Assembly: GCA_035609245.1 (NCBI GenBank) | Contig: CP141202.1 | Span: 558,001 to 622,000, forward strand | DNA: 64,000 bases | Origin: Bacteroidales bacterium MB20-C3-3 | Lineage (GTDB): Bacteria; Bacteroidota; Bacteroidia; Bacteroidales; UBA932 | Reading direction: 5' to 3' | In this document: one piece after another, positions 5,901-26,060 of the stretch | Layout: every line of letters starts with the position of its first letter | How positions within the stretch are numbered: position 1 is the stretch's first letter | Translations under genes and position numbers: made by a program | Notes under the pieces: model-generated | The model's input: the letters and a program-made list of their open reading frames with translations, nothing else | The model's database searches: none | Told to the model about the DNA's origin: nothing

Positions 5901-8900
5901 AGACCTGTTTTCCTCGGAAACGAAGTTTGAGAACACGCCTACCTTACCACCTCTTTTTTTAATCTCTTCAATAAGCTTTTTCCCGGATACCATCCTGTCC
6001 TGTAGTGCTTCAATTGTCTTTTCCCACTTGTTAAGAGTAATGTCATTGCTATCAAGAGTGAATGGCTCTCTCTCCTCTCTAAGTAGAACATCCGCCTCTG
6101 AGCGGAGTCTTGATTGTTTCTCCCTGCTCTTGACTATATCCGTCATTACCTCAATTGATGTAGCTTTCGCCTGGTCTTGCAATCTGTTTTTAGATCTCCA
6201 AAGCATGTATTTCATATCAGCATCACTCATATTAATGAAGACACCTACACTCCTAAGAGCATCACGAATAATTCCTTTTATCCTTTGCCACAAAGTTGGG
6301 TGTATATCGTACTTTGTAAGCTCTGAAAGATACTCTTCTGCAGCTGTAACTCGGTTATTGTACCTTGCAAAGTAATCAGCCTGAACACTCTTTGGCAGTG
6401 AAATAAATACCCTTTGCATGGTTTTCTTGAAGGTGTCTCCAAGTAAGTTTCTTAGGCCTTTATGCCCAACAACTTCATGAAGAATAGTTGTTTTAAGATC
6501 ATTAATACTATTGTGTTTGCTAAGCACTATTGTTACCTCTCCACTTATTGGTCTAAACCACCCCTTGGCGCGACGATATCTACTATTGCTTGGATATTGC
6601 TGAGTATCGTATATAATTTTAACTTCTGTGTTAAGACTCCTGGCAAACTCTCTAACGGTATTAACAACTGTCTCAAGAGGTAAGCCCTTATAATCTACCT
6701 GTTCCATACCTGATTCAGGCATATATAAAGGCATTCCTATTGCAGCCTGTTCTTTAATTGCAGGAGTAATAGGGATGGATTGTACTGAGTATACCTCGCC
6801 CTTATATGTTTTCTTTAGATCTATTGGATACCCGGTCTCACTAAGCACAACTTCATAGCCAATATTCTCCATGTCGGAAACATATTGTTCAATAGGGTAA
6901 GAGCCATCGTCCTCTGCAACGGAATCCATATACTTTTGATACAATTCTTCTGCCTCCGGGGTAAGGTTTCTTTCTCCAGCGTCTTCATCATAAACTTTTT
7001 TGCCAATTGCTGGAATTTCAGTAGTCTCAACCTTTGCTCCAAACTTTTTACCAATCTTGTTAACCTGAGCCGGAATAATGTTGTCATAGAAAGCCTTCAT
7101 GCCTGAACCGCCTACTTTGAGGTCGTTGCCTTCAAGCCTTGCTGGGTTGTGTTCTGTTGGATTTGATTTGTCATTTATTATTTTATTCGCTATATCCTTT
7201 CCTAAATAAGACTCTAATTCTGATTCTGTTAATTCAGACGGCTTGTTAAATTCAATAGATAATCCGAAATCATATGTTCCATTATCGTTTTTCCAATAAT
7301 CAATAAAATCTGTTTGCTTACTCAGGTTATACCTATCAGCCTGCATCTCACCATTAGTCCACGCAATCCTGTCAAAACCATTCTCAGCAGCGTAAATCAT
7401 CATTCTGCGGAGAGCGAGGTTTACCCATTGGTCGGTATTCTTGAAAGGCATATCGGGGACACCTTGTTCTTCAAGAATTGGATTTGTCTTAATTATTTCC
7501 TTTGCTTCTTCCTCGGTTTTAGCGTCAAGAAAAAATACACCAGCACCATCATAAACCTTATATATATCACCTTCTTTTTTATAATTAGGTTTGCCTGCAA
7601 ACCCCTCTTTCTTCCCCTTCTGTGCCCAATCGGATTGTATCTCTTCAATAAACAGTACTCTCTCCCCTGATGGGGTTGTTCTCTCATTGAATCGGACATG
7701 AGCGAGGATGTTGGGTTCGTCGAAGTGGGAGGATTTGAATTGACTTTTATTGTCATAAGAATCCCTTCCTTTCTGCATTAGCACCCTAAATCTATCAAGG
7801 TCTTTTTGTGGAAAATCAATCTCATTATTCATTCTTCTTTGTAACACTTCTAACTCTTCCTTTTCAGCAATAGTAATCGTGTTTCCTTTAACCGGCATTG
7901 TCAACAACAACTCCTTGTAATTCTCTCCGCCGGGGAGTTGGTATTGGGAGTATTTGGTGTCTCCTTGTGGATAATAACCTTTGTAAATTTTGTTTTCAAT
8001 ATAATTTTTAGCTTCCTCAAACGTATTTTCCGCTGATAATTGTTTGCTTGTTAAGTCATTATATATTGCAAAATAATTATCTCTTTTGCGAATTGAATAT
8101 AAAAAATTCATACCTGCCTTAGATGCGGAACCAATGGTATTACCGTCCTTTTCAGTCCACTTTATTTCTGGTTTTTCTGACTTCTCCACCTCCTGCACTT
8201 CAATCCTGTTCTGGTTTATCCAATCCTGTATTTCGGATTTGGTGATGATTAGCTTTACTCCCTGTCCTCCAATAGTCATTTTTGGATCAATATGGGCTAC
8301 TCCAAATCGTTCCTCCCATCCCATCCACTCCATTTCAGCCTCTTTTGCGCCATTTTTCAATAGCATGGCCTTCCATTGTTCCGGAGTACCTTTTTCCTGT
8401 TTGATTGAATTCAGGGCCTGTTCTGTTGGGGAATAGAAGTAAGGTTGGCGGAACAACACAGTATTTCCAGTCTCTTCGTCAATTTTCTCGTCAATAGTGC
8501 TAAAGAAAGTATCAAAAGCATTGTTTATATCAAGCCTCTCCTGTCCTTCAGGGTATGGTTTAGCATCATATAAGGCTACATACACAGCGTTATTTACTGA
8601 GTGAACTAAATAGTCATTCTTAGCTCCTACTGCTTTTAGTTTATCATCAACATACGCCTCAAATCCCCTAGCGGCCATTTCAAGATTAGTGCTCCAATAT
8701 GCGCTAGATCTTGATGCGTCCATGTCTTTACTCCCGTTATAGAATGTAGTGTTGACCTTCTTTAAATAGGTCTGGTCGCTCTTTGCATTCTCTAACTGGT
8801 CCTTTGCCATAACAACCCTATGGAAGGAGTAGAAATCAGCCCCTAGTGCGCTTCTGCCTGATATTACCTTTGTCAGCTCAGACAGTTGTTTTTGTACTTC

Positions 8901-11900
8901 ATAAACGCTTTCAAATGAGTATTTCTTTTTTGTCTCGGCTTTTGAGGTAGGGCCAAAGTCATAGTTATTAACCCTTTCAATAAGAGCATCCCAACTCTTT
9001 AACTGTTCTGGGGTGGCTGCCTTTTTTCGTAGCCCCCACTTCCTGTCAACGGCTAACCATCCCCTAGTGTTCTGAAGAGCTCTAACTAAAGAATCCTTAC
9101 TGCTCTCAAGTTTGTTTTCAAGCCTGGTAATGTCATATTCTGCCATTTCCTCCTTGTAGCGCATAGCTTTCCACACGCCATTCCAAGCTTTCACAACTTC
9201 ATCTCTAACCTTCTTGTTATTATAGTAGTCTCCACTCAGGTAATCCCTGCTAGGGTCTGGCGATTTGATAACACCTTCTTCATTTGGAACAAATCCTTGA
9301 TTCCCAAAAACACCAAAGTATGAATCCATCGCGTGAAACCATTCGTGCGCTAGTGCTCCGGCTCCGTTTATCTTCGTGAGGTTAATAACACCTCTATCTG
9401 CTTCAAAATGTGCAGCTGCATTAGACAGACCCTTACCCCTACTACCAAATCCAATTGCAAGTCTGCCTCCTAGCGACAGGGCTCTTGGAGATATATTTAT
9501 TACTGCCGCTAGATCCACAAGCGCATCGTATGCATAATTGAGCATAGACTGTCTCTCATCGGAGGCCACCCAGTTGCCAAACTCTCCTCCTCTGAAGCCA
9601 AAAGTGTCCATAAACTGCTCTGGAGTAATATTGCCTTTGCGTATCTCTATGCCAATTCGTTCTATGTTGTCAAGGTGCGGCCTCTCAACTTTGACGTCCT
9701 TTGCTTCAATGATACTTACTGCGTTTACAGCCATGTGCAACATAGCCTCATCTCTTGACTTAAAGCCTTTTTTAATCTCCCAGAGCTTCCCGCTGCTCCA
9801 TCTGCGATATATAGAATACTCATCATTGCTAGCTGACGAAGGGCGCACGTAATGATTTCTTGCAACCTCTAGTAATGGTATTGCGGATGCCGCCGCCTCA
9901 GGCGTGTCAAAGTTTTTCTGTACTATTTTAAAGAAGTTTCCGCTTACAATAGCAACTTCATACTTCCCATCTTTTGTGTCCCAGTCTGCGTAACTTGTAC
10001 CTTTCTTTTGCTGAAATACTTTGTATTTTTTAGCCCATCCCGGTAATTCACTATCTTTTCCGGTACGGGTAAACCCTCTTTCAGCTACATCTTTACGGGC
10101 CATGCCAATTTTCTGACCAAAGTCTTGCAACTTCTCAGCAGTCTCTTGACTCTCTTTCAACTCAGCTTCTGACATCTCAGCACCCGGTTCTCCAGACTCG
10201 TTATCAACATCGGGCTGTAATACACCCTCCTCAATAGGAGTATCATTTTCAAGTTGCGCAAGTCTTTGCTTTCTCTTCTCTTCGACTCTTAGCTTGGCCT
10301 CATCTGCAGAAATAGTATTTCGCCTTTGTAGTTCGCTCGTTAGAGCAGTGAATTCTGAAAATTCAGCCTCGGTAAGGGTTCCTACCCCTGTATTACTCCC
10401 AGTTATAGGGGTGTTTGAACTCTTTAAATTCTCCTCCCTTTCATTTATTATGGATTCATACTCCGACACTCTTGACTCAATCTCCTCAATAGGAGCATCA
10501 ACAAATGGCTGCTCAGATCGTATTTGCTTATACTCTGCAAACGGTTTAATCTTGCGAGTCTTATTCTCGGTCCACTTCTGGAAATCGTCAATAGATACCT
10601 CGGTGATATTACCAAGGCCCTGCCACCCCTCTTCGTAGTTTGCATTATAGGCCTTTGAAGCATCCTCAATAGAGTCAAATCCGAACATTACCTTGTGTTC
10701 ATCAAATGAACCGTCCTGATTGACCTGGTCAACGACATATACTTTTTCAGATAGTGGATTCTCTCCCACGAAAACGTCTATATGCTCCCCATCCTTGCCT
10801 TTTGTACCAAGAATATAGCCATAGGTGTTATTCATAGTCACGCTCCACTCCTTGCCACCTTTGTCAACTCCTGACCTTGTAGATCCTTTTGGTTGCTCAA
10901 TGGTAACATCGTAGCCAAGGAGCTTGATATGTCCCTTCTGATAATTACCTGCCTCTTTCTGTTTTTCGGTAGGCTCTGTGTTGACTCTTGCTTCTTCTTG
11001 CGCAATTTCCTCAATCTTCAACTGGCCCTGAGCTTCTCTCTCTCCTTGCTCAAGGTTTTTTGTTAAGACCTCAATTTTACGGTCTAATTCTGCAATGATT
11101 TTGTTTTGATTGTCAACAAGTGGCTGTGATGCTGATGGATCAAACCCCTCTCCCCCGAATAAGTCATTGGGGTCTTGTTTTGTGTCACCAAAGAGGCCGA
11201 CACGTTCTGCACTATTAGCTATGAGTCTGTCTCTCTCTGCGATTGCTTCTTTCTTGGATTGATTGAGAGACTCTATCTCCTTTCTTAAAGGATTTACAGA
11301 TTGTTCAGACTGTGCCAGCGCAGCACCTTGGAGAATAGTTTTATCCGTTCCTGTTCGTCCTCCTGGGCCTTCGTTGCTTCTTCCCTCGTTATTATACTGG
11401 CTTTGATTGCCAATGGCAGGGCCTCCCGAAACATCTGTACCAGCTCCTCGTTGGTATACTCCTTCTGCAATATTTCTTCCGGTTTCATCTTCAGGTAAAT
11501 CTTCTGATTCGTTAATAATTCTCCATCTCTCCTCATCCTTTACAGAATCAGCTATTAAATTCAAGATGGTAGATGCATCTTGCTCTGATAAAGGTAGGTA
11601 TTTTTCTGAGAAATAATCATCAATTATTTCTTCATATTCCTCTTCTGTGAGCTCTTCTTTAGAAGCTATATTTGATTTTATTTCCTCTGATTCATAGTAA
11701 TCCTCTTCGTTAAAGCGTCGCTCCTGGTCCCTTCTGCTTGTCTCAATTATTTCAAAGAGAGTCCTTCTAGAGTATGCTTTTCGCATAACCTCTAGAACAT
11801 CTGTAAATATATCAGAGTCCTCAAGGTTAACGAACAGACCATCATCGTCCATCTCTTTAATATAAAGAGCTAGATGCTCAGGGGACATCCCTGTTTTTTC

Positions 11901-14900
11901 ATTTTGCAGACCAAAATATTTCCTATATTCCTTTCCTCCTTTCTTTAGACCTAGATGCCCGGCAAGTCCTTTTATCCCCTCGGCTTTATTGTCGTTCATC
12001 CTGAACTTAATACCGTCTCTTAGGATTGTCATTGCTATTGCCTCCTCTCTTGTAGTTGGCTCTCCAAATTTCATCAGGTCTTGCTGCATTGGTGTCAGCC
12101 TCTTTCCTCCAGGTCGTCTTGTTGGTTTCTGGATAGGCTTTGGATTGGAGATCTCTTGTGCTGATTCTTGTGCAACTTGTACAGAAGAAATATCTTGTTC
12201 AGGAGAGAGCATGGTTTTAGCTTGATTTAGTTTCGCAAGCTCTGTGTTAACAATCTTTATTTTTCTTCTGCGCTCAATTGCGTTTGTAGTCTTCTCAGCC
12301 TTTTTAAGGGCCTCCTTTTGCTCTGCTATCAAATCCTCAAGGACAGACAACGATTCGTCTGCAAACTCTGATTTAAGGGCCTCTGCGTACATCTTTGGCT
12401 CTGCTATCTGAGAGTAATCAATCTGACCTTGCTTGTCAACAGGAATTGATATGCCTCCGGTAATAGAATTGCCTGCTTCTGCTTGCTGTGCCTCTTCTAT
12501 TGTTGCTGCTGATTCAGGCTCTTGGACTGGCTCAATAGGTAACTGCTGAACATCCTGAATTGGCAAATTGACTGCGTTAACATCTGCAGCGGGAGCCTCT
12601 TGTGTTACAGGAGGGACTCTCTGCAGGGACTCAATTTCAACTCTGTGTTCGTTGCCATCTCTGTCAACAACAAATATATCCTCCTCTGTTGCATCAATGA
12701 CGGTTACTATCTCCTCTCCTATTGCAAACTCAGCTCCAGGTATTACCTCTGAAAGGTTTACTGGCTGACTCTGCGCACTCTCTTGTTGCTGAGCTACTTC
12801 ATCGGCTATTTCTTGAGATTGAATGGCTGATTCAATAGGCTTAAGAGCATCCCTTGTTTTCAACCAATCATCTAGCCACGCTTTTGAATCAAATGTGCGA
12901 ATATCTTCGATCTCATCTGAAAGGATGGTTTTTGATTCTCCGGTATTGACATTGCGAACAACCATCAATTCTTTTCCCAACTCAGACTTCAAGACATCGG
13001 TAATATACATTAACTCCTCGTTTGCGTTCTTGCCAATCGCAACTGTATCAGGAGACTTTCTCATTGTCACAGGGCCACCCATCTCTGCCTCTGCAACTGA
13101 TAACAGACCCTCATATGCTCCTGCTCTCTCAGCGTTAATCAAAACAGCTTTTGATGCCGCGTCAATAACCGATTCAAGATCTTCATTAACCCCTTTCTTA
13201 TTGATGACTTCTCTTAGATTTTGAAATGCTTGAATAACTGCACTCTCAGACTTATCTTCGTTGAAATATCCGTTTGAGTTTATTGAGTTCTGGACTCCTT
13301 CTATTGCTTGAATTATGTCCTGGTCATTAAGCTCTGATGCCTTAGTAGCCAGGTTTGCATTAGCGGTTTTTGCAGCAGAATTCAACCTCCCTTTTTCTAC
13401 TGCATTAGCCACTCCTCCGGAGACTAATTGGGTGCCTTTGAAAATACCATTCATCAAAGCGGTATTCACTGCTATTGTGCCATAAAATTCAGGGTCTGCG
13501 AGTTGTTTATAGTCGTCTGAGCCTGTAAGAAGAGAGGATAAAAGAGCATTTGGAACCTCCTCAACGAAAATCTCTGTTGATATACCATGTATCTGAGCTT
13601 TGTCAAGAACACCACCCACCTTCTTATAAACAGGGTTAGCGGTAACTTTTTCAAGCGCACTCACATACTTAGACATCGGCCCAAGAATTCTCTTCTTTGC
13701 CAATAGGCTAGTAAGCGCACCCCTCCCAACAAGGTCACCAAACCCCTCTGTCATGTATTCAAGGGTGTTGGTTACATAGGACTTATAAAGGTCTCCTGCA
13801 AGCGTGTTGTCTCCCTTTTCAATTTGTCCATGTTCGTCTTGTGAGAAATTTCCGACTCTTCGTTTAGCCAGGTCTGTATAAAAAGTAGTCGTTAGAGGCG
13901 AGCGCAACATATTCCCTAGTACAATTGACCCTGTTTTCCTTACTGCATAATCAACAGCCTGTCTCTTACCCCCTTTAATGGCAGCCTTGAATGTCTCGGC
14001 TCCTGCTGCCTTACCAAGATTAACAGCCCCTGCAACACCTCCAGTGGCCATAATGTTGACGATAAAAGGGACCATCATCCTTCCTTGCGCTCCTGCCTTA
14101 TACCAAAACCCATTATCCTTTGACTGCATCTCCTGCAACTTCATGTAAGAGTCAATGAGTTTTTGCTCTTCCGGGTTGATTGAGTTCTTATCCTTACTTG
14201 CCTTCTCAAGCAACTCAATCATATAGACATCATCCCTCATTGTCGATAGACCCATTGTCAGGAAGTCTTTGACGGTTCCTGATTTTGTCAGTCCATCCCA
14301 AAACTTTTTGATTCCCGGACTATTTGGATCTAGTGACTCTTGTTGTTCGGCAAGGTTAGCAACATCCCTACGGATAAGCATAGCCTTCATCTGTTTTTCT
14401 ACATCTTCAAGCCTTTCCTTGTTCTTTTCATAGAACTCTCTCTCTTCCTTTGAAATTTTTGCCTTGCTCAGTAGTCCACCCAGCCCCATCATTCGACTTT
14501 CTCTTGCGTTATATCCTGTGAACGAATCCACATCGGGGATATTCATCTTCTGCTTAATTGCATTGAATTTTGCAAGCTCCTCCTTATGTCTATCATTCAG
14601 TTCCTTTAGCTCACCCTCAACATCACTAACAACGCTGTCTGCAGCTATAGGACTTGCCTGCTGAGCTACTTGATCAACACTCTTCGCAATAGGAGCATTC
14701 GCCTTGCTCATCAACGGCGCAGGAGCCTTATCTTGAATAACAAACGGATTCTGAGGCGCAAATGTAGTTTCCGCAGGCGATGGAAGTGGGAGGTTTCCTC
14801 CTGGTCTTCCGGCTGGAAATGGCCCGGTAATGTCTCTTAGAACATAATCGGTAAATTTCCTCTCATCCCCTATCTCCTCTTCGTCAAAAATTGTTTTGAG

Positions 14901-15056
14901 ATTCTTGTACAAATAGGCTGCATCTGAGGCGCTTGTAATTGAATTCAGAAAGTCCTCTTTTTTGCCAAGCTCCTTTTCTGAAACCCTCCCTGTGCCTATG
15001 AGGTTGTTATACAACTTCTCCCTGCTATCAATTTGCTGAGCTTTTGAGTCTGTCAT
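2925..15056 (-). CDS. Giant polyvalent phage protein (4043 residues)
   Basis: Polyvalent proteins are huge multi-domain proteins of phages and conjugative elements, thought to enter the new host with the DNA and block its defenses. This one is intact over 12.1 kb. In order it shows: an N-terminal part with helical, partly hydrophobic stretches (about 325-350); a long Glu/Gln-rich linker zone; an inorganic-pyrophosphatase-like domain (about 1370-1510, with KGHIKLLGYDVTIEQPKG and DEHKVMFGFDS); a conserved FGFRGGEFGNWV block near 1820; an HEWFH zinc-peptidase-type motif near 1905; a repeat-like AMLLKNGAKEAEMEWMGW block near 2230; an EIQSDWAQKGKKEGF block near 2475; a second zincin motif HEVVGH near 2858; and a C-terminal LPD38-like region (about 3490-3860). 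It sits between ejection-type proteins and the portal, so packaging in the virion is likely. Domain names come from memory of the family, not a search. Confidence 0.75.
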   Translation of the reverse strand: MTDSKAQQIDSREKLYNNLIGTGRVSEKELGKKEDFLNSITSASDAAYLYKNLKTIFDEEEIGDERKFTDYVLRDITGPFPAGRPGGNLPLPSPAETTFAPQNPFVIQDKAPAPLMSKANAPIAKSVDQVAQQASPIAADSVVSDVEGELKELNDRHKEELAKFNAIKQKMNIPDVDSFTGYNARESRMMGLGGLLSKAKISKEEREFYEKNKERLEDVEKQMKAMLIRRDVANLAEQQESLDPNSPGIKKFWDGLTKSGTVKDFLTMGLSTMRDDVYMIELLEKASKDKNSINPEEQKLIDSYMKLQEMQSKDNGFWYKAGAQGRMMVPFIVNIMATGGVAGAVNLGKAAGAETFKAAIKGGKRQAVDYAVRKTGSIVLGNMLRSPLTTTFYTDLAKRRVGNFSQDEHGQIEKGDNTLAGDLYKSYVTNTLEYMTEGFGDLVGRGALTSLLAKKRILGPMSKYVSALEKVTANPVYKKVGGVLDKAQIHGISTEIFVEEVPNALLSSLLTGSDDYKQLADPEFYGTIAVNTALMNGIFKGTQLVSGGVANAVEKGRLNSAAKTANANLATKASELNDQDIIQAIEGVQNSINSNGYFNEDKSESAVIQAFQNLREVINKKGVNEDLESVIDAASKAVLINAERAGAYEGLLSVAEAEMGGPVTMRKSPDTVAIGKNANEELMYITDVLKSELGKELMVVRNVNTGESKTILSDEIEDIRTFDSKAWLDDWLKTRDALKPIESAIQSQEIADEVAQQQESAQSQPVNLSEVIPGAEFAIGEEIVTVIDATEEDIFVVDRDGNEHRVEIESLQRVPPVTQEAPAADVNAVNLPIQDVQQLPIEPVQEPESAATIEEAQQAEAGNSITGGISIPVDKQGQIDYSQIAEPKMYAEALKSEFADESLSVLEDLIAEQKEALKKAEKTTNAIERRRKIKIVNTELAKLNQAKTMLSPEQDISSVQVAQESAQEISNPKPIQKPTRRPGGKRLTPMQQDLMKFGEPTTREEAIAMTILRDGIKFRMNDNKAEGIKGLAGHLGLKKGGKEYRKYFGLQNEKTGMSPEHLALYIKEMDDDGLFVNLEDSDIFTDVLEVMRKAYSRRTLFEIIETSRRDQERRFNEEDYYESEEIKSNIASKEELTEEEYEEIIDDYFSEKYLPLSEQDASTILNLIADSVKDEERWRIINESEDLPEDETGRNIAEGVYQRGAGTDVSGGPAIGNQSQYNNEGRSNEGPGGRTGTDKTILQGAALAQSEQSVNPLRKEIESLNQSKKEAIAERDRLIANSAERVGLFGDTKQDPNDLFGGEGFDPSASQPLVDNQNKIIAELDRKIEVLTKNLEQGEREAQGQLKIEEIAQEEARVNTEPTEKQKEAGNYQKGHIKLLGYDVTIEQPKGSTRSGVDKGGKEWSVTMNNTYGYILGTKGKDGEHIDVFVGENPLSEKVYVVDQVNQDGSFDEHKVMFGFDSIEDASKAYNANYEEGWQGLGNITEVSIDDFQKWTENKTRKIKPFAEYKQIRSEQPFVDAPIEEIESRVSEYESIINEREENLKSSNTPITGSNTGVGTLTEAEFSEFTALTSELQRRNTISADEAKLRVEEKRKQRLAQLENDTPIEEGVLQPDVDNESGEPGAEMSEAELKESQETAEKLQDFGQKIGMARKDVAERGFTRTGKDSELPGWAKKYKVFQQKKGTSYADWDTKDGKYEVAIVSGNFFKIVQKNFDTPEAAASAIPLLEVARNHYVRPSSASNDEYSIYRRWSSGKLWEIKKGFKSRDEAMLHMAVNAVSIIEAKDVKVERPHLDNIERIGIEIRKGNITPEQFMDTFGFRGGEFGNWVASDERQSMLNYAYDALVDLAAVINISPRALSLGGRLAIGFGSRGKGLSNAAAHFEADRGVINLTKINGAGALAHEWFHAMDSYFGVFGNQGFVPNEEGVIKSPDPSRDYLSGDYYNNKKVRDEVVKAWNGVWKAMRYKEEMAEYDITRLENKLESSKDSLVRALQNTRGWLAVDRKWGLRKKAATPEQLKSWDALIERVNNYDFGPTSKAETKKKYSFESVYEVQKQLSELTKVISGRSALGADFYSFHRVVMAKDQLENAKSDQTYLKKVNTTFYNGSKDMDASRSSAYWSTNLEMAARGFEAYVDDKLKAVGAKNDYLVHSVNNAVYVALYDAKPYPEGQERLDINNAFDTFFSTIDEKIDEETGNTVLFRQPYFYSPTEQALNSIKQEKGTPEQWKAMLLKNGAKEAEMEWMGWEERFGVAHIDPKMTIGGQGVKLIITKSEIQDWINQNRIEVQEVEKSEKPEIKWTEKDGNTIGSASKAGMNFLYSIRKRDNYFAIYNDLTSKQLSAENTFEEAKNYIENKIYKGYYPQGDTKYSQYQLPGGENYKELLLTMPVKGNTITIAEKEELEVLQRRMNNEIDFPQKDLDRFRVLMQKGRDSYDNKSQFKSSHFDEPNILAHVRFNERTTPSGERVLFIEEIQSDWAQKGKKEGFAGKPNYKKEGDIYKVYDGAGVFFLDAKTEEEAKEIIKTNPILEEQGVPDMPFKNTDQWVNLALRRMMIYAAENGFDRIAWTNGEMQADRYNLSKQTDFIDYWKNDNGTYDFGLSIEFNKPSELTESELESYLGKDIANKIINDKSNPTEHNPARLEGNDLKVGGSGMKAFYDNIIPAQVNKIGKKFGAKVETTEIPAIGKKVYDEDAGERNLTPEAEELYQKYMDSVAEDDGSYPIEQYVSDMENIGYEVVLSETGYPIDLKKTYKGEVYSVQSIPITPAIKEQAAIGMPLYMPESGMEQVDYKGLPLETVVNTVREFARSLNTEVKIIYDTQQYPSNSRYRRAKGWFRPISGEVTIVLSKHNSINDLKTTILHEVVGHKGLRNLLGDTFKKTMQRVFISLPKSVQADYFARYNNRVTAAEEYLSELTKYDIHPTLWQRIKGIIRDALRSVGVFINMSDADMKYMLWRSKNRLQDQAKATSIEVMTDIVKSREKQSRLRSEADVLLREEREPFTLDSNDITLNKWEKTIEALQDRMVSGKKLIEEIKKRGGKVGVFSNFVSEENRSSSRAKAELDDFEDNYYKPILDIVAKWAKEGKSADEISLYMMAKHAPERNRHIVIRDARESILYGFNKDLRKAEGKRRSATAEKDIKAIDESIRNIQSQIDFINSAENAGLIAEIMRNAYDVAFNHDNRSPLPEGMDSLSYMIALNIQKRAISMLSKVAESELSNNRSGLSDEEAADIVNEFEKGLKEVKDVVMFWDNIRKATRFSLDKSLKYGLISKEVHAATSNMYEFYVPLRSWAEKEDIDYQDVFGDNYLGHEILNPVNKHAEGRTSLADNPLGFIASMAETSIVAGSKNEVRRNAWRLIKNNDHMTDLFLIKQAWEVNIADIGDEPIWETTYEPPTQELIDAGMARRLSPNKTYEWHKSRGDIKKHQVPVLIDGSRVLIEFKGPIGARIAAAINGDDVVRWKRTEGIARLTRIMAALKTSKNPDFMLTNFLRDYFFGTMAYSARGGSSLTMTKNLGRAWIAIHKDFTKGKEDSYLKEMYDDFKMSGGETGYVHMLGEQDYKRKVEKLVKEANKAGSVSPTVYAKKTIKVLNHGLDYLAHMSENAVRFATYLTEVERLTKEAGTKQPSETMKKQAALAAKEVTTNFNRKGKWSSQVNSFYAFFNASVQGSANYIKLAKENPKGFVLYNMAMMSIRTALAAWCLSLFGDDDDEKGYLALSDYIKENNFVIPAGDSKFITIPLPHGARALTNIGPLALDVVMGKKSAAEAMDTYSKNIISELSPINLVGLDKSAFIPRKADEVLLTMLPTVVRPFAETALNMDFMSRPIERGNFLATDNGYLPRFRNAYSSTNPILVGLAKELNRLGGGNDSRSAGVKVDKDGNVSRSKVGELLDVSPAYTEHILEGYFGGLGRFINDMYKTTRSAIQGNIPEKQNIPVVRRLYQEPYESLAWQKYYETRSRVNDITKAMKAAKQEGMMEEYMNLNNYYNNTLISTFEIYNDIMKNISSNIKQLPEESPMRKQAEKAMDELVNKFNEEIKYIDANHNKRR

Positions 15057-20300: not shown

Positions 20301-20775
20301 TCTTGCAACAGAAGCGGGCGAAATGGTCACTACAGAAGATGGCTATTATGTAATTCTAGAGCAGGTTCTCAATAACGAATATGATGACACAATAGGTTAC
20401 TCATCGACAGATATTATTGATCTACACGAGCGAGAAGGAGAAGAGGACGATCAGGTGATGATACATATACAGTCAAGGCCTGTAATCCTAGGCTCGGCAG
20501 CCTATAAATCAATTAGGAGAGCATCTCTGAGGGCAGACATCCTTACATCCGGGAGGCCGTTTGGCGCCTACCTCTACGCCTCGAATGACCTGAAAAGCTG
20601 GAGACTCGTAAGCTATAAGCAGGTAGGCAAGGACACAGCAAACATAAGACTTGACAGGGTGCACACATCTTATAGGTATTACATAATCGCAGCTGGAGGA
20701 TATGTCAGAGCGAATAGTAATATATCTTATTTCGAAATTGAAGCTGAAGAAAAATTATCAGGAAAAATCAGATAA
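17293..20775 (+). CDS. Large phage tail/stabilization-type structural protein
   Basis: This 1160-residue protein opens with a segment (NFQGINRNNSGQSAGDGACEELINVRNDG, positions about 9-37) like those of large tail-hub or DNA-stabilization proteins of Bacteroidetes podoviruses, which describe an ordered, beta-rich shell. The body (about 40-780) alternates short beta strands and loops, including a stretch with FVFTDAGIFALQQGSG and YSSGGNVYFLSG, which suggests a beta-propeller. A beta-sandwich-like end (about 1070-1150) could be a binding domain. No enzyme motif is seen. The start could be the ATG at 17296 rather than 17293. It is transcribed opposite to the portal operon, and a hairpin follows its stop. 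Confidence 0.55.
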   Translation: MMKRIITNFQGINRNNSGQSAGDGACEELINVRNDGNMLRVVRKHKAILQNSDAIEYFEHRVGTVNNRISVGFDKTNNTYYIRVFEIIYNGSEEIVTGAYTQLYTSSARISVKTLNNMLIINDNARDNTIVYHYLNGEYKLQYDGLPSLPAFSITKKDYDGGLPPGLSTTYYTFAGQQKPIVTRIEDLKYETPEGRKYLYSTPFSPKKEAYLSEEVFRETILSAINEARQKSDNYSEGYFLLSLNYTLVNGDETKMTAPVMIEVGKAELSPIIEQVVNLNGGALENIIAAIKGQAVDITLSNVDYSQYKDLIKSVNIYTTEIMSHLDLDVKKMTPAITHPNHPLQYTYEQRESFVVDNKITHETLKNKLFFRQKELLIENLSEVVSLVFNTGKLTTEKTMKVDSSGWLRTKGKSFIYNNRLHLYDYERKFTPEASIFSNMNYVKGVANTVAGAHVRVSNSDGKAMYINGSVQIYFLLDDFTEDMKVWLADLVSFPDSRAEYLYIYFGFQGKKYAGKLSLSPSSTYNYAYSVNITNETTPTMICKEVVSYDLVDEDVDESVQNAIIVSSPGAPYHFPVEHSYRISGKVRNLCVMAEDISAAQVGQYPLFVFTDAGIFALQQGSGTVLYSNLLPISSDIADSVCQTKYGIAYSSGGNVYFLSGRNGSLLSHALDAVPDTSVRSAQGYNVAHGSIELYSVSSFLSHSNFKLYAKRANLVYDAIEEELIVSNPIFSYSYVFNLRNKAWHKVSDTYLKNDSSSRYVTRRSWVSFSPSQPARAKISINAMTVRPAMTFAYLNRCEFANANTIIPAGNQMTLVIGTNRLASYYTQTAMPLYLVIEMICASVSFIEQEYNSFENVCYIYTNQKSYDNKIVFVKNADSTILHSDGLVEMVGNVIIEKKGIDEQVMINIAGRSIPVVINSNDTYVSLAGRITDMIRASASDIVSAEKSGNIIYLTSRAYGSQANDIILTSQSSLYCIINSSTFTGGQDVGATDNIQTQLIDIYLATEAGEMVTTEDGYYVILEQVLNNEYDDTIGYSSTDIIDLHEREGEEDDQVMIHIQSRPVILGSAAYKSIRRASLRADILTSGRPFGAYLYASNDLKSWRLVSYKQVGKDTANIRLDRVHTSYRYYIIAAGGYVRANSNISYFEIEAEEKLSGKIR

Positions 20776-20778
20776 CAA

Positions 20779-20807
20779 AAGGCCCTGTATGCGAACTACA
20801 GAGCCTT
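20779..20807 (+). terminator. Stem-loop after the tail gene
   Basis: An 11-base stem with one mismatch and a 7-base loop (arms 20779-20789 and 20797-20807) starts three bases after the stop codon of the 1160-residue gene. There is no long T run afterwards, so it is either a weak intrinsic terminator or an mRNA 3' protective hairpin. Confidence 0.5.
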
Positions 20808-20892
20808 AATGAACCTAAACTTAAACTATGAGAATACAATTGCAAATGTAATTGATGCTTCTGTTAATATGCGATTTCTTGTGTAATTGTTA

Positions 20893-20925
20893 TTGACGAG
20901 TTATTTACAGCCATTATATTTTTGC
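20893..20925 (+). promoter_or_regulatory. Candidate Bacteroidetes promoter for the methyltransferase pair
   Basis: TATTTTTGC at 20917-20925 matches the Bacteroidetes -7 box TAnnTTTGC exactly. A TTG at 20893-20895 lies 21 bases upstream, close to the usual -33 spacing. Transcription would start near 20932, leaving a leader of about 155 bases before the ATG at 21090. The surrounding 314-base gap (20776-21089) holds nothing else I can identify and is very AT-rich. Confidence 0.45.
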
Positions 20926-21089
20926 TATCTATCTCATTATCTTTTATTTATACGAAACACATAAATTAGTATCCTTTGATTTACAAGCACTTATAATTCT
21001 TGTTAATTAAACTTAAAAGGTATTATTTAATATTGTCGCCTACTCATTTAATTTATAACTTTACAGTTTACACATATAAGTCATTAAAG

Positions 21090-22145
21090 ATGAGTAAAAC
21101 AAAGGCTCAAAATAAGAGTTTGCAATTAGCTAAAGAGCATAAAAAAGACGAGTTCTACACGCAACTTTCGGACATAGAAAGAGAGTTAAAGTATTACAAA
21201 CATCACTTTAAAGATAAGGTTGTGTATTGTAATTGCGATGACCCAAGAGTGAGTAATTTCTTTCATTATTTTTCTTACAACTTCGAGAAACTTGGGCTAA
21301 AAAAGCTTATTACCACCTGCTACAAAAACCAAAACATGGATTTGTTTAGCCAAAACGACAGCGAACAAGCCATTTATTTGGAATATACAGGTGATAAGAA
21401 TGGTAATAATGTTCCTGATCCAAATGAAATTGGGATTAAATACTTGAAAGGTGATGGTGATTTTCGTAGCAAAGAAAGCATCGAACTACTCAAACAAGCT
21501 GATATTGTTGTAACCAATCCTCCATTCTCTCTATTTCGTGAGTATGTTTCGCAACTTATAGAATATGATAAAAAATTTGTAATTGTAGGACACCAAAATG
21601 CAATAAAATACAAAGAAATTTTCCCTTTAATCAGGGATAACAAGATTTGGTTGGGTTACGGTTTTAAGGGTGGTGCAGGGCATTTTATCAATGAACATTA
21701 TGAAGATTATGCAACTGCAACAGACCGAAAAGAAGGAATGATCAGAGTTTCAGGGGTTCATTGGTTTACAAACCTTGAAATCAATAAACGGCACGAAGAT
21801 TTGATTCTCTATAAAAAATACACGCCTGAAGAATATCCTAAGTTTGAAAATTATGATGCGATTAATGTCGATGTTACCAAAGATATTCCTGTTGATTATG
21901 ATGGAATGATAGGCGTTCCCATAACTTTTATGGATAAATACAATCCAGACCAATTTGAAATAATTGGAGTAGGCATAGCAAACTTGGGTCTTGAAATAGG
22001 AATACAGCCATATAAGCCTGAACATAAAAAATATAGAAAAGAAATTCAGAAAAGAGGTGCTGTTGATGGGGATTTATATATGATGATAGACGGTGTTGTT
22101 ACTGTTCCGTATTCTCGCATAATTATTAAAAGAAAGAAGAAATGA
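21090..22145 (+). CDS. EcoRI-family adenine-specific DNA methyltransferase
   Basis: This enzyme should transfer a methyl group from S-adenosylmethionine to adenine N6 in a specific DNA site. The 351-residue protein carries the catalytic NPPF motif (IVVTNPPFSLFREY, near residue 145), and the early segment VVYCNCDDPRVSNFFHYF is typical of EcoRI-type methylases, whose usual length is about 330. I chose the ATG at 21090 (MSKTKAQNKSLQLAKEHKKD); a longer form from a TTG at 21000 has an unlikely N-terminus. It overlaps the downstream DUF262-HNH gene by four bases (ATGA), so the two are translationally coupled. It sits at the cargo position of the prophage, is more AT-rich than the virion genes, and may protect DNA from its partner. 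Confidence 0.85.
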   Translation: MSKTKAQNKSLQLAKEHKKDEFYTQLSDIERELKYYKHHFKDKVVYCNCDDPRVSNFFHYFSYNFEKLGLKKLITTCYKNQNMDLFSQNDSEQAIYLEYTGDKNGNNVPDPNEIGIKYLKGDGDFRSKESIELLKQADIVVTNPPFSLFREYVSQLIEYDKKFVIVGHQNAIKYKEIFPLIRDNKIWLGYGFKGGAGHFINEHYEDYATATDRKEGMIRVSGVHWFTNLEINKRHEDLILYKKYTPEEYPKFENYDAINVDVTKDIPVDYDGMIGVPITFMDKYNPDQFEIIGVGIANLGLEIGIQPYKPEHKKYRKEIQKRGAVDGDLYMMIDGVVTVPYSRIIIKRKKK

Positions 22146-23236
22146 AAATAGAGTTAAAAGAAATAACGGTTCGTGAGCTTACCAACGGTTATCAGGATAA
22201 CGAAGAGAATGGAGTTGTCGGATTTGGTGGAAAATTAGATATACGCCCGCCTTACCAAAGAGAATTTATATACAAAGACAAGCAACGTGATGCTGTAATA
22301 AATACAATTACAAATGATTTCCCATTGAACGTAATGTATTGGGCTGTTCGAGAAGATGGCGGCTTTGAAGTAATTGACGGGCAACAACGCACCATTTCAA
22401 TCTGTCAGTTTGTCGAGGGTGATTTTGCTTATAACAATCGCTATTTTCACAATCTACAACAAGATGAGAAAGAACAGATATTGAATTACAAACTGATGGT
22501 TTATTTGTGTTCAGGAACGGACAGCGAAAAATTAGATTGGTTTGAAACAATAAATATTGCAGGCGAAAAACTGACTCCCCAAGAATTGAAAAACGCAGTA
22601 TATTCTGGCTCGTGGGTTTCTGACGCAAAACGCTATTTCAGCAAAAATGGCTGTGCAGCTTATAGCTTAGGAAGCGACTATCTAACAGGTTCACCAATAC
22701 GTCAAGATTATCTGGAAACTGTAATCGGATGGATTTGTGGCAATGCTAGTGATGACGGTATAAAAAACTATATGGCAAAGCAACAGCACGAGCCAAATGC
22801 AAATGAATTATGGTTGTATTTTCAAAACGTTATAAACTGGGTAAAAGTTGTTTTTCCAAAATACCGTAAAGAGATGAAAGGAGTTGAATGGGGTATTTTA
22901 TATAACCAGTTCAAGGAGAAAAAGATTGACCATATAAAGTTAGAGGAAGAAATCACTACACTAATGCAAGATGAGGACGTAACCAGCAAAAAAGGTATCT
23001 TTGAATATGTTTTAACTCGCAAAGAAAAGTACTTGAATATTAGAGCGTTTAGCGACAACCAAAAACGTGAGGCCTACGAACGGCAAAAAGGCATTTGTCC
23101 TGTTTGCACCGAAAACTATAAAATAGAACAGATGGAGGCAGACCACATCACTCCTTGGCACAACGGAGGCAAAACGATTACAGAGAATTGTCAATTACTC
23201 TGCAAAGAAGACAACAGAAGAAAATCCGGAAAGTAA
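22142..23236 (+). CDS. DUF262-HNH nuclease, probable restriction partner
   Basis: The first half (about residues 1-130) is a DUF262/ParB-like domain with the hallmark DGQQR motif (near residue 80), as in GmrS, SspE and related defense nucleases where it hydrolyses nucleotides or senses DNA. The C-terminus (about 310-364) is an HNH nuclease: a CPVC zinc knuckle, then ADHITPWHNGG, then NCQLLC and NRRKSG. The start codon overlaps the methyltransferase stop, so the pair is one unit. The likely role is to cut DNA lacking, or carrying, a given methyl mark, with the methyltransferase as the protecting or marking half. Target site and logic (type II-like or modification-dependent) cannot be read from sequence. 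Confidence 0.75.
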   Translation: MKIELKEITVRELTNGYQDNEENGVVGFGGKLDIRPPYQREFIYKDKQRDAVINTITNDFPLNVMYWAVREDGGFEVIDGQQRTISICQFVEGDFAYNNRYFHNLQQDEKEQILNYKLMVYLCSGTDSEKLDWFETINIAGEKLTPQELKNAVYSGSWVSDAKRYFSKNGCAAYSLGSDYLTGSPIRQDYLETVIGWICGNASDDGIKNYMAKQQHEPNANELWLYFQNVINWVKVVFPKYRKEMKGVEWGILYNQFKEKKIDHIKLEEEITTLMQDEDVTSKKGIFEYVLTRKEKYLNIRAFSDNQKREAYERQKGICPVCTENYKIEQMEADHITPWHNGGKTITENCQLLCKEDNRRKSGK

Positions 23237-23249
23237 TTATTTATTAAAA

Positions 23250-23263
23250 AGCTAGTACTAGCT
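23250..23263. repeat. 14-base perfect palindrome near the prophage end
   Basis: AGCTAGTACTAGCT is a perfect palindrome 13 bases after the nuclease stop codon and about 78 bases before the attachment core. It could be a protein-binding site used by the integrase or a regulator, or a small hairpin at the mRNA end. The rest of 23237-23340 holds no gene. Confidence 0.4.
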
Positions 23264-23340
23264 ACACCAAAGTTGTACCGTGCGGATTTTGATACACACC
23301 TATATACCTTGTTATTAATTACTTATGTTGTGGTATCTTA

Positions 23341-23386
23341 CAGCTTCCCAAGCTGAGGGTCGTGGGTTCGAACCCCATTTACCGCT
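23341..23386 (+). other. attR: 3' fragment of tRNA-Gly(CCC)
   Basis: The sequence forms the 3' part of a tRNA: anticodon arm CAGC-TTCCCAA-GCTG with anticodon CCC, a variable loop, a T arm with TTCGAAC loop (stem 23362-23366 with 23374-23378), the acceptor 3' strand TTACCGC and discriminator T at 23386. No matching 5' acceptor GCGGTAA or full D arm occurs upstream within tRNA length, so the gene is incomplete. This is the usual trace of integration into a tRNA 3' end. The core shared with the phage probably starts around 23340. Confidence 0.85.
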
Positions 23387-23401
23387 CAAATTTTTAAGAG
23401 C

Positions 23402-23761
23402 ATGAAAAGATTTGTTATTTATACGATCTGTATTCTTTTATGCTCAGTTTATGGTTTTTCCCAGAAACGCCAGATTGGACCTCAGTTTCCTGGTGGTATA
23501 CAAGAGTTAAGGAAAGAGCTTAAAGAGAATCTCAAAAAAGAGTTTAAAGATTATAAGGAGCATCCTGCCACAGTAAGGATTAATTTCTCTGTTACAAAAA
23601 AAGGCAGACCTTTTAATGGCTCTGCCCCTGATTTAACCGATCCAAATGTTCAGAAAAAAATTGCCAAGGCTGTCCGTAGACTTCCACGATTCAAACCCGG
23701 AAGTGCAAACGGAGTGGCAATTCTAAGCGACATCAGCATTGAGATTGATTTGAAAAACTAA
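23402..23761 (+). CDS. Small secreted protein with TonB-like C-terminal domain
   Basis: This 119-residue protein has a signal peptide (residues 1-20, MKRFVIYTICILLCSVYGFS) and a body that matches the TonB C-terminal fold pattern seen in many Bacteroidetes proteins: QFPGG near the start of the mature protein, then VRINFSVTKKGR and RLPRFKPGSANG. Without the proline-rich linker and membrane anchor it is not a complete TonB; it is probably a free periplasmic partner of unknown function. It begins only 15 bases after the tRNA fragment, so it may once have been read from the tRNA promoter. Its stop overlaps the stop of the convergent acyl carrier protein gene by two bases, with no terminator between. 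Confidence 0.7.
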   Translation: MKRFVIYTICILLCSVYGFSQKRQIGPQFPGGIQELRKELKENLKKEFKDYKEHPATVRINFSVTKKGRPFNGSAPDLTDPNVQKKIAKAVRRLPRFKPGSANGVAILSDISIEIDLKN

Positions 23762-24015
23762 GCTTTCCTGTTCTGTTCAATAAATTCTGCCAGTGTTCTT
23801 ACTGATCTGAAAACCTCCTTGTTTGCTTTTGGGTCTTCCATTCTTATTCCGTACTCTCTTTCCAGCAATATTACCAGTTCAAGAGCGTCTATTGAGTCTA
23901 AGCCAAGTCCTTCACCAAAAAGAGGAGCATCTGTATCAATATCCTCAGGAGTTATCTCCTCCAGATTGAGAGCTTCAATTATCTGCTGCTTTAGTTTGAG
24001 AATGAGTTCTTCCAT
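23758..24015 (-). CDS. Acyl carrier protein (operon-distal)
   Basis: This 85-residue acidic protein carries growing acyl chains on a phosphopantetheine arm attached to Ser in the motif GLGLDSIDALEL (Ser near residue 40). Length and helix pattern fit a free-standing ACP. It is the last gene of the operon, 16 bases after the ABC permease, and is one of two ACPs that lie near the two ends of the cluster. It probably serves either polyene elongation or the DarA/DarB branch; the sequence does not tell which. It lacks a terminator before the convergent TonB-like gene. Confidence 0.9.
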   Translation of the reverse strand: MEELILKLKQQIIEALNLEEITPEDIDTDAPLFGEGLGLDSIDALELVILLEREYGIRMEDPKANKEVFRSVRTLAEFIEQNRKA

Positions 24016-24031
24016 AATATTGAGTTGTTAA

Positions 24032-25306
24032 TTAAGAGTATATTTTTAATTTTTTTCTTGAGTATAGTGCAATAAGAAAGCATGTAAGACCAAAGATTAA
24101 CAGGGCGATACCTTCAGGCAAAACCGATAAAAACCCTTCGTCTCTCAAAAAGATGCTGTAAAAGCCTGACATCCCCCAGTTCATAGGAGATAGTTTACTA
24201 ATAAGCTGCATTTGAGGAGACATCAGAAAGAGAGGAATCCATACCCCTCCAACTGCAGCAAGGATAACAACAGAGACTGCACCAAAAACAGAGGCCTGCT
24301 GGTATGTCCTGGCCAGATTCCCTATGGCTACTCCATATCCAATAGCAGCAACAGCAACTGAAAATCCCATAAAGAAAAGAGCACTGTATGAATGGCCCAG
24401 TTCCAGAGATGGCAATCCTGTTAGTGGTAAAATTTTAACACCAATAAACAGCATAAGGGAAAATTGGGCAAGAGCTACAACTAAGTATACAATAGACTTG
24501 CTGATAAGATATTCGGCATATGTGCATGGCATTGTAAGAAGTCTTGTAAAACTTCCTCCCTCTCTCTCCTTAATAATATTTCCTCCCAGGGAGATAACAA
24601 TAAAAAAGATTGCAAAGAGGCTCCAGGCAGGAACATTATGCTGAACCGAGTTTGGCATAATATCACTTCCCTCTCTGGTGACGAACTTGTCAACTATAGT
24701 AAACTGCTCTCCGGAAAAGTTTGAGGTATTAACTGCGACCGGAGAAATGTCATTTACCTGATTTGATATCTCTCTCATTATGTACTCAAACTGTACCTTT
24801 TGAGACCTCTCTCTCAGAGTACTCATAAGTACAGAGTGGAACGAGCCTTTGGCAGCAGGATCAACAAGTACATTTATGCTTACTATTTCATCCAGAGGAA
24901 TCTCTTCAATACCATTAAAGGCCCCTACAACAAATTTCTGTACATTCCCCCTAATCCTCTGAGTTGCATCCTCTGGTATAAAAATTCCTATCATATTGTC
25001 ACCCGGTGAGATTCTCCCCTCCATCATAACAGGGCTCTGATACTGAGAAGCAGAGTCATGCTCAATGGCAAATAATCCGGATGACTCTATCTCTTTAACA
25101 ACGGCCGCCCCAAGTTCGCCGGAATCACGGTTAACGAGCAAAAGGGGGATTTTGTTCCCTTTTACAAAATTAAGTGTGCTGTCCTGCAAATTTGCCATTA
25201 AAATGACTAGCAGAACAGGCATAAGGAACATTAGGATAATCCCTCCTACATCCCTTTTTAGCATAAGGTAATCCTTATAGAGCAGGTATTTTATCCTTCT
25301 ATTCAT
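24032..25306 (-). CDS. ABC-2 type transporter permease
   Basis: The 424-residue protein has one N-terminal membrane helix (about residues 20-40), a large extracytoplasmic domain and five to six C-terminal helices (about 220-415), the ABC-2 permease layout. A conserved stretch NIIKEREGGSFTRLLTMP just after the first C-terminal helix matches the family. It overlaps the ATPase gene by eight bases, and the two should form one exporter. In this cluster the cargo is probably the resorcinol or polyene lipid, or a precursor, moved across the inner membrane. The end of the protein is basic, as expected on the cytoplasmic side. Confidence 0.88.
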   Translation of the reverse strand: MNRRIKYLLYKDYLMLKRDVGGIILMFLMPVLLVILMANLQDSTLNFVKGNKIPLLLVNRDSGELGAAVVKEIESSGLFAIEHDSASQYQSPVMMEGRISPGDNMIGIFIPEDATQRIRGNVQKFVVGAFNGIEEIPLDEIVSINVLVDPAAKGSFHSVLMSTLRERSQKVQFEYIMREISNQVNDISPVAVNTSNFSGEQFTIVDKFVTREGSDIMPNSVQHNVPAWSLFAIFFIVISLGGNIIKEREGGSFTRLLTMPCTYAEYLISKSIVYLVVALAQFSLMLFIGVKILPLTGLPSLELGHSYSALFFMGFSVAVAAIGYGVAIGNLARTYQQASVFGAVSVVILAAVGGVWIPLFLMSPQMQLISKLSPMNWGMSGFYSIFLRDEGFLSVLPEGIALLIFGLTCFLIALYSRKKLKIYS

Positions 25307-26060
25307 ATGTGTCTCGCATCTGTTTTCCGGTTAACTTAAAATAGAGGGCTTCCAGATTTTTACACTCTGGATTTGATTTTCCAAGTTCAGCTGGATTCCC
25401 CTCAAGTACAATTTTACCTCCGTCAATAAGACCAACAGTATCGCATATACATTCAGCCTCTTCAAGATAGTGAGATATAAAAAGAACGGTTGTGCCTTCA
25501 CGATTGATTCTGATAAGCTCCTCCAGTATTAAATTCCTTGACTGAGCATCAACTCCAACCGTTGGTTCGTCTAGTATCAGAATCTTTGGTGTGTGAAGGA
25601 GCCCTGCAAGCAAATTTATTCTTCTTTTCATTCCCCCTGAGTATTGACTCAAAGGTCTATCAGCACTGTTCTCAAGGCCAAATCTCTCTAACAACTCATC
25701 AACCCTGTCATTGAGGATTTTACCCTCAACCCCGTACATTCCACCAATAATTCTCAGATTCTCTTTACCGGTTAACATTGGGAAAAGAGCTATCTCCTGC
25801 GGAACTAAACCAATTATTTTTTTAATTTCAGAAAGTTCAGCAGGTACACTTAACCCATCAACCAATACTCTGCCGGAATCAAACCTCTTAAGTCCACACA
25901 AAATATCAATTGTTGTAGTCTTACCGGCTCCATTTGGAGCTAACAAACCATAAAGGGATCCCTTTAAGATTTTAAGATTGAGACCATCCAGAGTAGGATT
26001 GGTTTTTCCTTTATACTTTTTTATTAGTCCCTCTGTAAATATTGCATGTTTTTCAGGCAT
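25299..26060 (-). CDS. ABC transporter ATP-binding protein
   Basis: This 253-residue ATPase powers the neighbouring permease. It shows Walker A (APNGAGKTT, near residue 43), the Q-loop VPQE, the signature YSGGMKRR (near 140), Walker B ILILDEPTVGVD (near 160) and the switch His in FISHYLEEAE. These place it with the DrrA/CcmA-like export ATPases. It overlaps the BtrH-like gene upstream and the permease gene downstream by eight bases each. All catalytic residues appear intact. Confidence 0.93.
   Translation of the reverse strand: MPEKHAIFTEGLIKKYKGKTNPTLDGLNLKILKGSLYGLLAPNGAGKTTTIDILCGLKRFDSGRVLVDGLSVPAELSEIKKIIGLVPQEIALFPMLTGKENLRIIGGMYGVEGKILNDRVDELLERFGLENSADRPLSQYSGGMKRRINLLAGLLHTPKILILDEPTVGVDAQSRNLILEELIRINREGTTVLFISHYLEEAECICDTVGLIDGGKIVLEGNPAELGKSNPECKNLEALYFKLTGKQMRDTYE

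Follow-up and report, generated by a model that had tools for sequence, protein, structure and literature searches.

The locus described here raises the question of which of two adjoining proteins, a methylase related to M.EcoRI or a nuclease of the DUF262 family, decides the DNA sequence on which the pair acts. Both genes lie on the forward strand of the window, by which we mean the whole 64,000-nucleotide stretch of DNA that was analysed. The first gene (M; 21090..22145) is uninterrupted from the ATG at 21090 to the stop at 22145 and encodes a putative adenine methyltransferase of 351 amino acids (P0001), in which PF13651 (EcoRI_methylase) covers residues 11–349 with 465 bits. The second (R; 22142..23236) is likewise open from the ATG at 22142 to the stop at 23236, reads in the same direction, shares the bases ATGA with the end of M and encodes 364 amino acids (P0002) with a GmrSD_N (DUF262) domain (69 bits) and an HNH domain (42 bits). 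The original prediction of an M.EcoRI-family methylase overlapping a DUF262-HNH nuclease by ATGA is thus borne out by the Pfam assignments and the open reading frames. Both proteins also give full-length matches to PADLOC models, M to MTase_II (PDLC03297, 403 bits) and R to REase_II (PDLC03418, 457 bits over residues 1–364). At E ≤ 1, R has no Pfam match to the EcoRI-family nuclease (PF02963) or to DUF1524, the nuclease of GmrD, and a helicase motor was not found in the Pfam domain search.

The sequence motifs expected of active proteins are intact. The NPPF motif of M (residues 143–146; 21516..21527, forward strand), which is presumed to be catalytic and which we take to be motif IV of the adenine methylases, is invariant at N143, P144, P145 and F146 in an alignment of 60 rows. 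In R, the HNH domain (PF01844; residues 319–362; 23096..23227, forward strand) retains D334, H335, N349 and N358 in 21 of 21 aligned rows. The same 21 proteins all match PDLC03418 and keep both Y/F38-Q39-R40 and an invariant DGQQR motif (residues 79–83; 22376..22390, forward strand), which is described as the NTP pocket motif of the DUF262 family in the portions consulted of work on GmrSD and SspE (PMC4619093, PMC9646914). An AlphaFold2 model of R (pLDDT 86, pTM 0.67) returned BrxU as its first Foldseek match (E = 0.0036), after which came an HNH nuclease and ParB/Srx folds; none of these matches reached E ≤ 0.001. The model of M (pLDDT 86) gave no Foldseek match in the PDB at E ≤ 0.001, and a PDB sequence search with P0001 returned nothing relevant.

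The two genes form the final item of cargo ahead of attR in a prophage of about 61 kb inserted at a tRNA-Gly gene. The attR copy (23341..23390, forward strand) comprises the 3′ end of tRNA-Gly(CCC) plus 3 bases beyond it, and is one half of an exact 50-base direct repeat whose other half is at the 3′ end of the intact tRNA-Gly(CCC) of the same genome, about 60.9 kb upstream. An integrase-like protein of 444 amino acids (Phage_int_SAM_5, 51 bits) is encoded just inside the far end of the prophage and a portal protein is encoded within the window. The placing of the pair at the cargo edge just inside attR therefore stands on the repeat, the tRNA gene, the integrase and the portal. The G+C content of the two genes is 0.345, compared with about 0.40 in their surroundings. 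The promoter-like box that had been attributed to the pair did not hold up: sigma-70-like matches in 20700–23500 were not above chance (10 observed, 11.4 expected), and a single TAnnTTTG lies 173 bases upstream of M with no paired TTTG box found with it. We also note that the prophage carries a single open reading frame of 4043 amino acids (window 2925–15056), and that the half with the integrase contains a gene for a C5-cytosine methylase (PF00145, 99 bits; L176:14285–15919). Just outside attR (window 23758–26060) are genes for an acyl-carrier-type protein (PF00550) and for an ABC-2 transporter with its ATPase (PF12698, PF00005).

A search of other genomes for the same two genes showed that they occur together very widely. 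Among viral contigs, M was near R at 24 of the 27 loci found by means of R; two of the three exceptions are cut by a contig end and the third (L029) is only a 64-residue piece of R. All seven viral-contig loci found by means of M contain R, whole or as a 5′ piece. On genome contigs, M was near R at 78 of 80 loci (the best 80 of 535 confirmed), the other two being cut by contig ends. In 296 genomes of the window's own phylum, PF13651 adjoins 16 of the 17 full-length R places (bits of 367 or more, a cut chosen in this analysis), as a fragment only in one case and split in one; the 17th begins 213 bases from a contig end, and one of the 17 has an internal stop. The phylum to which G302 belongs (L044, Paenibacillus) was sampled through 299 genomes; M is present at all six of their full-length R places (E ≤ 1e-40), and one genome, G465, has a broken R without M. 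Over four surveys, five of the six R loci that are without M are cut by contig ends, the sixth being the piece at L029. Plasmids gave 712 records with a match to R, in 44 of which the match covers at least 80%; 37 of the 40 records listed from these 44 also carry M, not always adjacent, and the other three are from Apilactobacillus. Aeromonas and Vibrio plasmids are among those with pairs, and distant R proteins (38–40% identity) on an Enterococcus plasmid, a Moraxella plasmid and a Flavobacterium phage are each adjoined by M. The pair is spread over many bacterial phyla and one archaeal bin (L075), most loci being from metagenome bins. It is therefore real and common, and the view of the two genes as one unit agrees with this co-occurrence. 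The methylase is not solitary, as had been supposed, but has a partner here and in almost every close relative of the pair that we read. Nor is the pairing unusual: it is found widely, and as both proteins are already covered by PADLOC models for Type II restriction–modification, there is nothing new in filing it as a candidate Type II system.

The arrangement of the genes was compared in 108 full pairs (M of at least 290 and R of at least 340 amino acids) from 136 loci scanned. The two genes are on the same strand in all 108 and M is first in 107, L081 being reversed. A four-base overlap is found in 50 of the 108, duplicates included, and a gap of more than 250 bases between M and R in 12. 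Natural fusions of M to R were absent from the 136 loci. It could be argued that an orphan methylase and a Type IV nuclease simply lie side by side as unrelated cargo, as GmrSD relatives are Type IV enzymes and a few M genes (L165, L169) have no detected R; the pairing in nearly all loci across phyla and the frequency of the overlap make this reading scarcely credible. No third component was counted, because the genes found in the M–R gaps differ among loci (Fic, BRO-like and others); Pfam identification of these genes covered L078 and L048. Four Paludibacteraceae bins (L078, L082, L084 and L088) have a nearly identical Fic-domain gene between M and R (4021–4950), and L048 and L050 have a BRO-like gene in this position. 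A Lactiplantibacillus plasmid (L134:2115–4217) encodes a 700-residue fusion of an EcoRI-family adenine methylase with a C5-cytosine methylase.

For comparison of the sequences, nine duplicates of the same place and L136, which has two M genes, were removed from the 108 full pairs to leave 98 rows. L117 is the same record as L106, which leaves 97 distinct pairs; the main counts were repeated with these 97 and agree with those from 98. L050 and L007, in which M is short, were added only in the conservation profile and the cassette comparison. M is conserved apart from two hypervariable segments at about residues 188–224 and 293–341 of P0001, which we refer to as cassette 1 (21651..21761) and cassette 2 (21966..22112), both on the forward strand; the conservation profile indicates no comparable hypervariable region in R. 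Across the 97 distinct pairs the mean pairwise identity is 0.70 for core 1 and 0.67 for core 2 of M, whereas cassettes 1 and 2 average 0.32 and 0.21, respectively. Clustering at a distance of 0.4 gives 23 types of cassette 1 and 48 types of cassette 2 in 73 combinations, and the distances for the two cassettes are nearly independent of one another (r = 0.075, p = 0.001; 97 pairs). The window's cassette 1 is found at 60% identity or more in 30 M proteins, the window included, and its cassette 2 is also common to six of these 30 (again with the window included) at the same level. A PF13651 search of 11 genomes for silent stores of cassettes found one place in nine of them, two in G299 and three partial ones in G304, and no cassette-shuffling locus. 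On a Variovorax plasmid (L136:4983–7706), two EcoRI-family methylase genes stand in tandem ahead of one DUF262 gene, which is a possible setting for cassette exchange.

As a control we examined eight M proteins with a neighbour of the R.EcoRI family, drawn from 6 of 19 plasmid records (E. coli, two Klebsiella, Leuconostoc, Staphylococcus and Rhodococcus) and from two genomes of the window's phylum, so that Pseudomonadota, Bacillota, Actinomycetota and the window's own phylum are represented. At L166 the neighbouring nuclease shares 72% identity with R.EcoRI, and the one at L167 matches PF02963. In these eight proteins the cassettes are the most conserved part of M, with mean identities of 0.80 (cassette 1) and 0.81 (cassette 2) compared with 0.61 for core 1. 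When gaps were scored as mismatches, the best of 20,000 random subsets of eight from the DUF262 group reached 0.73 for cassette 1 and 0.36 for cassette 2; when gaps were disregarded, the corresponding values were 0.81 and 0.46. The control group thus stands out at cassette 2 by either measure but at cassette 1 only when gaps are counted, because one type of cassette 1 is very common. An Acinetobacter plasmid (L138:917–2807), in which an EcoRI-family nuclease adjoins a methylase of PF01555 and not PF13651, was left out of the control for that reason; such an exchange of methylase family can fit a nuclease that reads its site independently. A query resembling R.EcoRI found nothing in the viral contigs.

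We consider that the cassettes are probably the target-recognition regions of M, mainly because they vary when the partner is a DUF262-HNH nuclease and are fixed when it is R.EcoRI, which itself fixes the site. Recognition regions of some classes of methylase lie after an NPPF-type motif, and both cassettes of M are located after this motif. Tyr204 of M.EcoRI, which we understand to cross-link to DNA, falls within cassette 1 if the first methionine is not counted. The cassettes might instead vary to evade phage-borne inhibitors, with every M keeping a single target; hypervariable surface segments are indeed common in defence proteins. We find this quite improbable, as it is in these very segments that the R.EcoRI-paired methylases of four phyla are most conserved, and the positions of NPPF and of Tyr204 (methionine uncounted) also count against it. 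A further segment of M, resembling an EF-hand (about residues 101–114 of P0001), was considered as a binding site for R and dropped. Its strict pattern is present in 45 of the 98 DUF262-paired M proteins and in none of the eight paired with R.EcoRI. However, L092 and L103 have R proteins that are 93.6% identical and two different versions of M over residues 78–120 or so, which would be odd if this segment bound R, because it differs beside nearly the same R.

R distances are correlated with those of the M core (r = 0.70), and their raw correlations with the cassettes are 0.13 (p = 0.002) for cassette 1 and 0.10 (p = 0.004) for cassette 2. Given the core, no relationship between R and the cassettes was detectable in the 97 pairs (partial r of −0.05, p = 0.91, and 0.03, p = 0.20, respectively), and restriction to R identities below 90% (90 pairs) gave partial correlations of −0.059 and 0.023. 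A tree of R built for the 98 rows requires 45 changes of cassette-1 type over 86 rows, where the minimum is 7 and shuffling gave 51.3 (s.d. 1.9). For cassette 2 it requires 36 changes of type over 57 rows, with a minimum of 12 and a shuffled value of 43.1 (s.d. 1.6); on a tree of the M core the changes number 31 and 34. As there are fewer changes on the R tree than in the shuffles, some co-inheritance of R and the cassettes remains; it is weak, and cassette 1 follows its own core more closely. Among the 97 pairs, 17 comparisons from 12 loci involve R proteins that are at least 90% identical, and both cassettes are shared in only one of these.

Individual loci illustrate the same point, with R proteins that are 97–99% identical adjoining M proteins that have different cassettes. 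In L048 and L050, R is 97% identical (11 residues differ) and both cassettes have been replaced. The DNA of the M core is 90–100% identical per 60-base step and that of the M core, intervening gene and R taken together is 87–100% identical, compared with 35–70% in the cassettes; the core and cassette limits of L050 were placed by protein alignment, and its M lacks the N-terminus where the contig starts. Both cassettes of L048 are of the M.EcoRI type (identities of 0.78 and 0.95), for which reason we predict that its site is GAATTC and that L050 has another. L047 also has two cassettes of this type, yet its R is about as similar to the R of L050 (0.742) as to the R of L048 (0.747). In L082 and L084 both cassettes differ and R differs at four residues. 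L048/L050 and L082/L084 therefore represent natural near-isogenic pairs, which make the question of the site reader directly testable.

Loci with damaged genes bear on whether R acts without M. The only PF13651 gene is interrupted and R is open in four of the five genomes searched, by a TAG codon in L058 (Rothia; 4306) and L087 (4630) and by a frameshift in L079 and L091. This suggests that R is harmless without M, which would be at odds with an ordinary Type II enzyme and with toxicity of the DndI kind, although three of the four genomes are metagenome bins and the interruptions may be errors or read-through. The in-frame TAG of L058 and L087 may denote a pseudogene, read-through or a sequence error. 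In the fifth genome, a Gracilibacteria bin (L086), M has one in-frame TGA (4475) where its relatives have glycine; TGA may be read as glycine there, which would account for it. At L178 an open R adjoins a truncated M, and the genome (G270) has other M places. The converse, a broken R with M present, is found in L125 and L022.

These observations bear most directly on the possibility that the pair is an ordinary Type II system, in which R alone reads and cuts the unmethylated site of M, a few of its residues shifting with the cassettes. Such an assignment has in its favour the PADLOC models and the adjacency of the two genes with M first. It would nevertheless require a nuclease that has no variable region, and that diverges independently of the cassettes given the M core, to follow them all the same; four residue differences in L082 and L084 would have to accompany two different cassettes, and R would have to be tolerated beside a sole, interrupted M in four genomes. 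We therefore regard it as unlikely. Of the two alternatives offered by the original prediction, a Type II-like or a methylase-guided system, both are possible in outline, but the cassettes, which that prediction had not noted, argue against a Type II system with two independent readers of the site. R seems to lack a fixed site of its own, and the target appears to be set by M.

The reading to which we incline, with somewhat better than even confidence, is that the two genes form a methylase-targeted restriction–modification system in which M, and not the nuclease, decides the target. M would carry two exchangeable recognition cassettes and write m6A at the site that they specify. R, which has no matching recognition region and would be the same for all targets, would act where M directs it, most probably by joining M in a complex or by engaging it on the DNA. 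At an unmethylated site, the NTP-dependent DUF262 domain would then release the HNH nuclease, and phage DNA would be restricted in this way. That M supplies the target is suggested in part because movement of recognition regions is known from Type I and Type III systems. Against this reading stand the lack of any M–R fusion among the 136 loci scanned and the differing M segments at about residues 78–120 in L092 and L103.

The main competitor is a nuclease that senses the m6A mark and is switched by it, so that one R could serve any target of M in the manner of DndI or SspE. This explains a constant R and a variable M equally well, and the tolerance of R for quite different M proteins, as in L092 and L103, favours it. 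Aeromonas and Vibrio hosts are Dam+, however, and a general reader of m6A should be blunted there, although pairs occur on their plasmids. In addition, the PF13651 partner is kept down to 38–40% identity of R in the loci read, and in these loci, found by a search for PF13651, no R was seen with a methylase of another family instead. According to the parts consulted of two reports, DndI and SspE are DUF262 and HNH proteins that act as NTPases and nickases under the control of a separately made mark (PMC9646914, PMC11662687), and SspE needs Y30 and Q31 (PMC9646914, in part); R keeps Y/F38-Q39-R40 together with DGQQR, but the likeness of Y38/Q39 to Y30/Q31 is by motif only. We regard a mark-sensing R as a lesser possibility, though a more serious one than an ordinary Type II enzyme, and favour a complex of R with M with Type III-like logic, because a single methylase family serves as partner and the genes overlap.

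Should the methylase-targeted reading be correct, a widespread system that is filed as plain Type II works differently, and M.EcoRI, among the best known of all methylases, belongs to a family in which targets are exchanged by swapping cassettes. A DUF262-HNH nuclease could then be guided by a separate small methylase, and the system would be a compact source of new sequence specificities. It is, in our judgement, slightly more probable than its opposite that these arise by recombination within one gene while the nuclease is unchanged.

Neither the pair nor its cassettes were found described in the open literature searched, although knowledge may exist in databases or subscription sources. The parts seen of reviews of DUF262 proteins and restriction (PMC10952713, PMC12707154, PMC3874153) and of a report on the GmrSD family (PMC4619093) make no mention of it. 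The pairing itself is not new; what is new is the cassette pattern, which we have not found in print in the open literature. The PADLOC model descriptions name the parts as Type II only and are silent on which of them sets the target. The system of M.EcoRI and R.EcoRI (GAATTC) has the same methylase family, and the cassettes of L047 and L048 are of its type, but its nuclease is PF02963 and not GmrSD_N with HNH, R precedes M in the eight EcoRI-type loci read, and its cassettes are conserved where those described here are variable. GmrSD and BrxU of Type IV share with R the GmrSD_N domain with DGQQR and a C-terminal nuclease of the His-Me type, BrxU being the top Foldseek match noted above; they have DUF1524, in contrast to the HNH domain (PF01844) and tie to a methylase observed here. 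The sections consulted of two reviews (PMC10952713, PMC12707154) describe Type IV enzymes as cutting modified DNA without requiring a methylase as partner. SspE and DndI resemble R in that a DUF262 and HNH effector is coupled to a separate DNA-marking module (PMC9646914, PMC11662687, each seen in part), but their mark is phosphorothioate, while here it would be m6A from one methylase. In the four records whose annotations were read, none of the genes adjoining the pair is annotated as dnd or ssp.

There is a parallel in pattern with Type I and Type III systems, in which the nuclease is constant while the recognition segments move. These segments move within the specificity subunit (HsdS) or the methylase (Mod), as described in the part consulted of PMC3983042. 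The likeness to Type III lies in a constant nuclease with exchangeable methylase segments, as a sequence pattern only, and the Pfam families of Mod and Res differ from those of M and R. On balance, we lean towards a separate class of restriction system, in which a constant DUF262-HNH nuclease would take its target from an M.EcoRI-family methylase with independently swapped cassettes.
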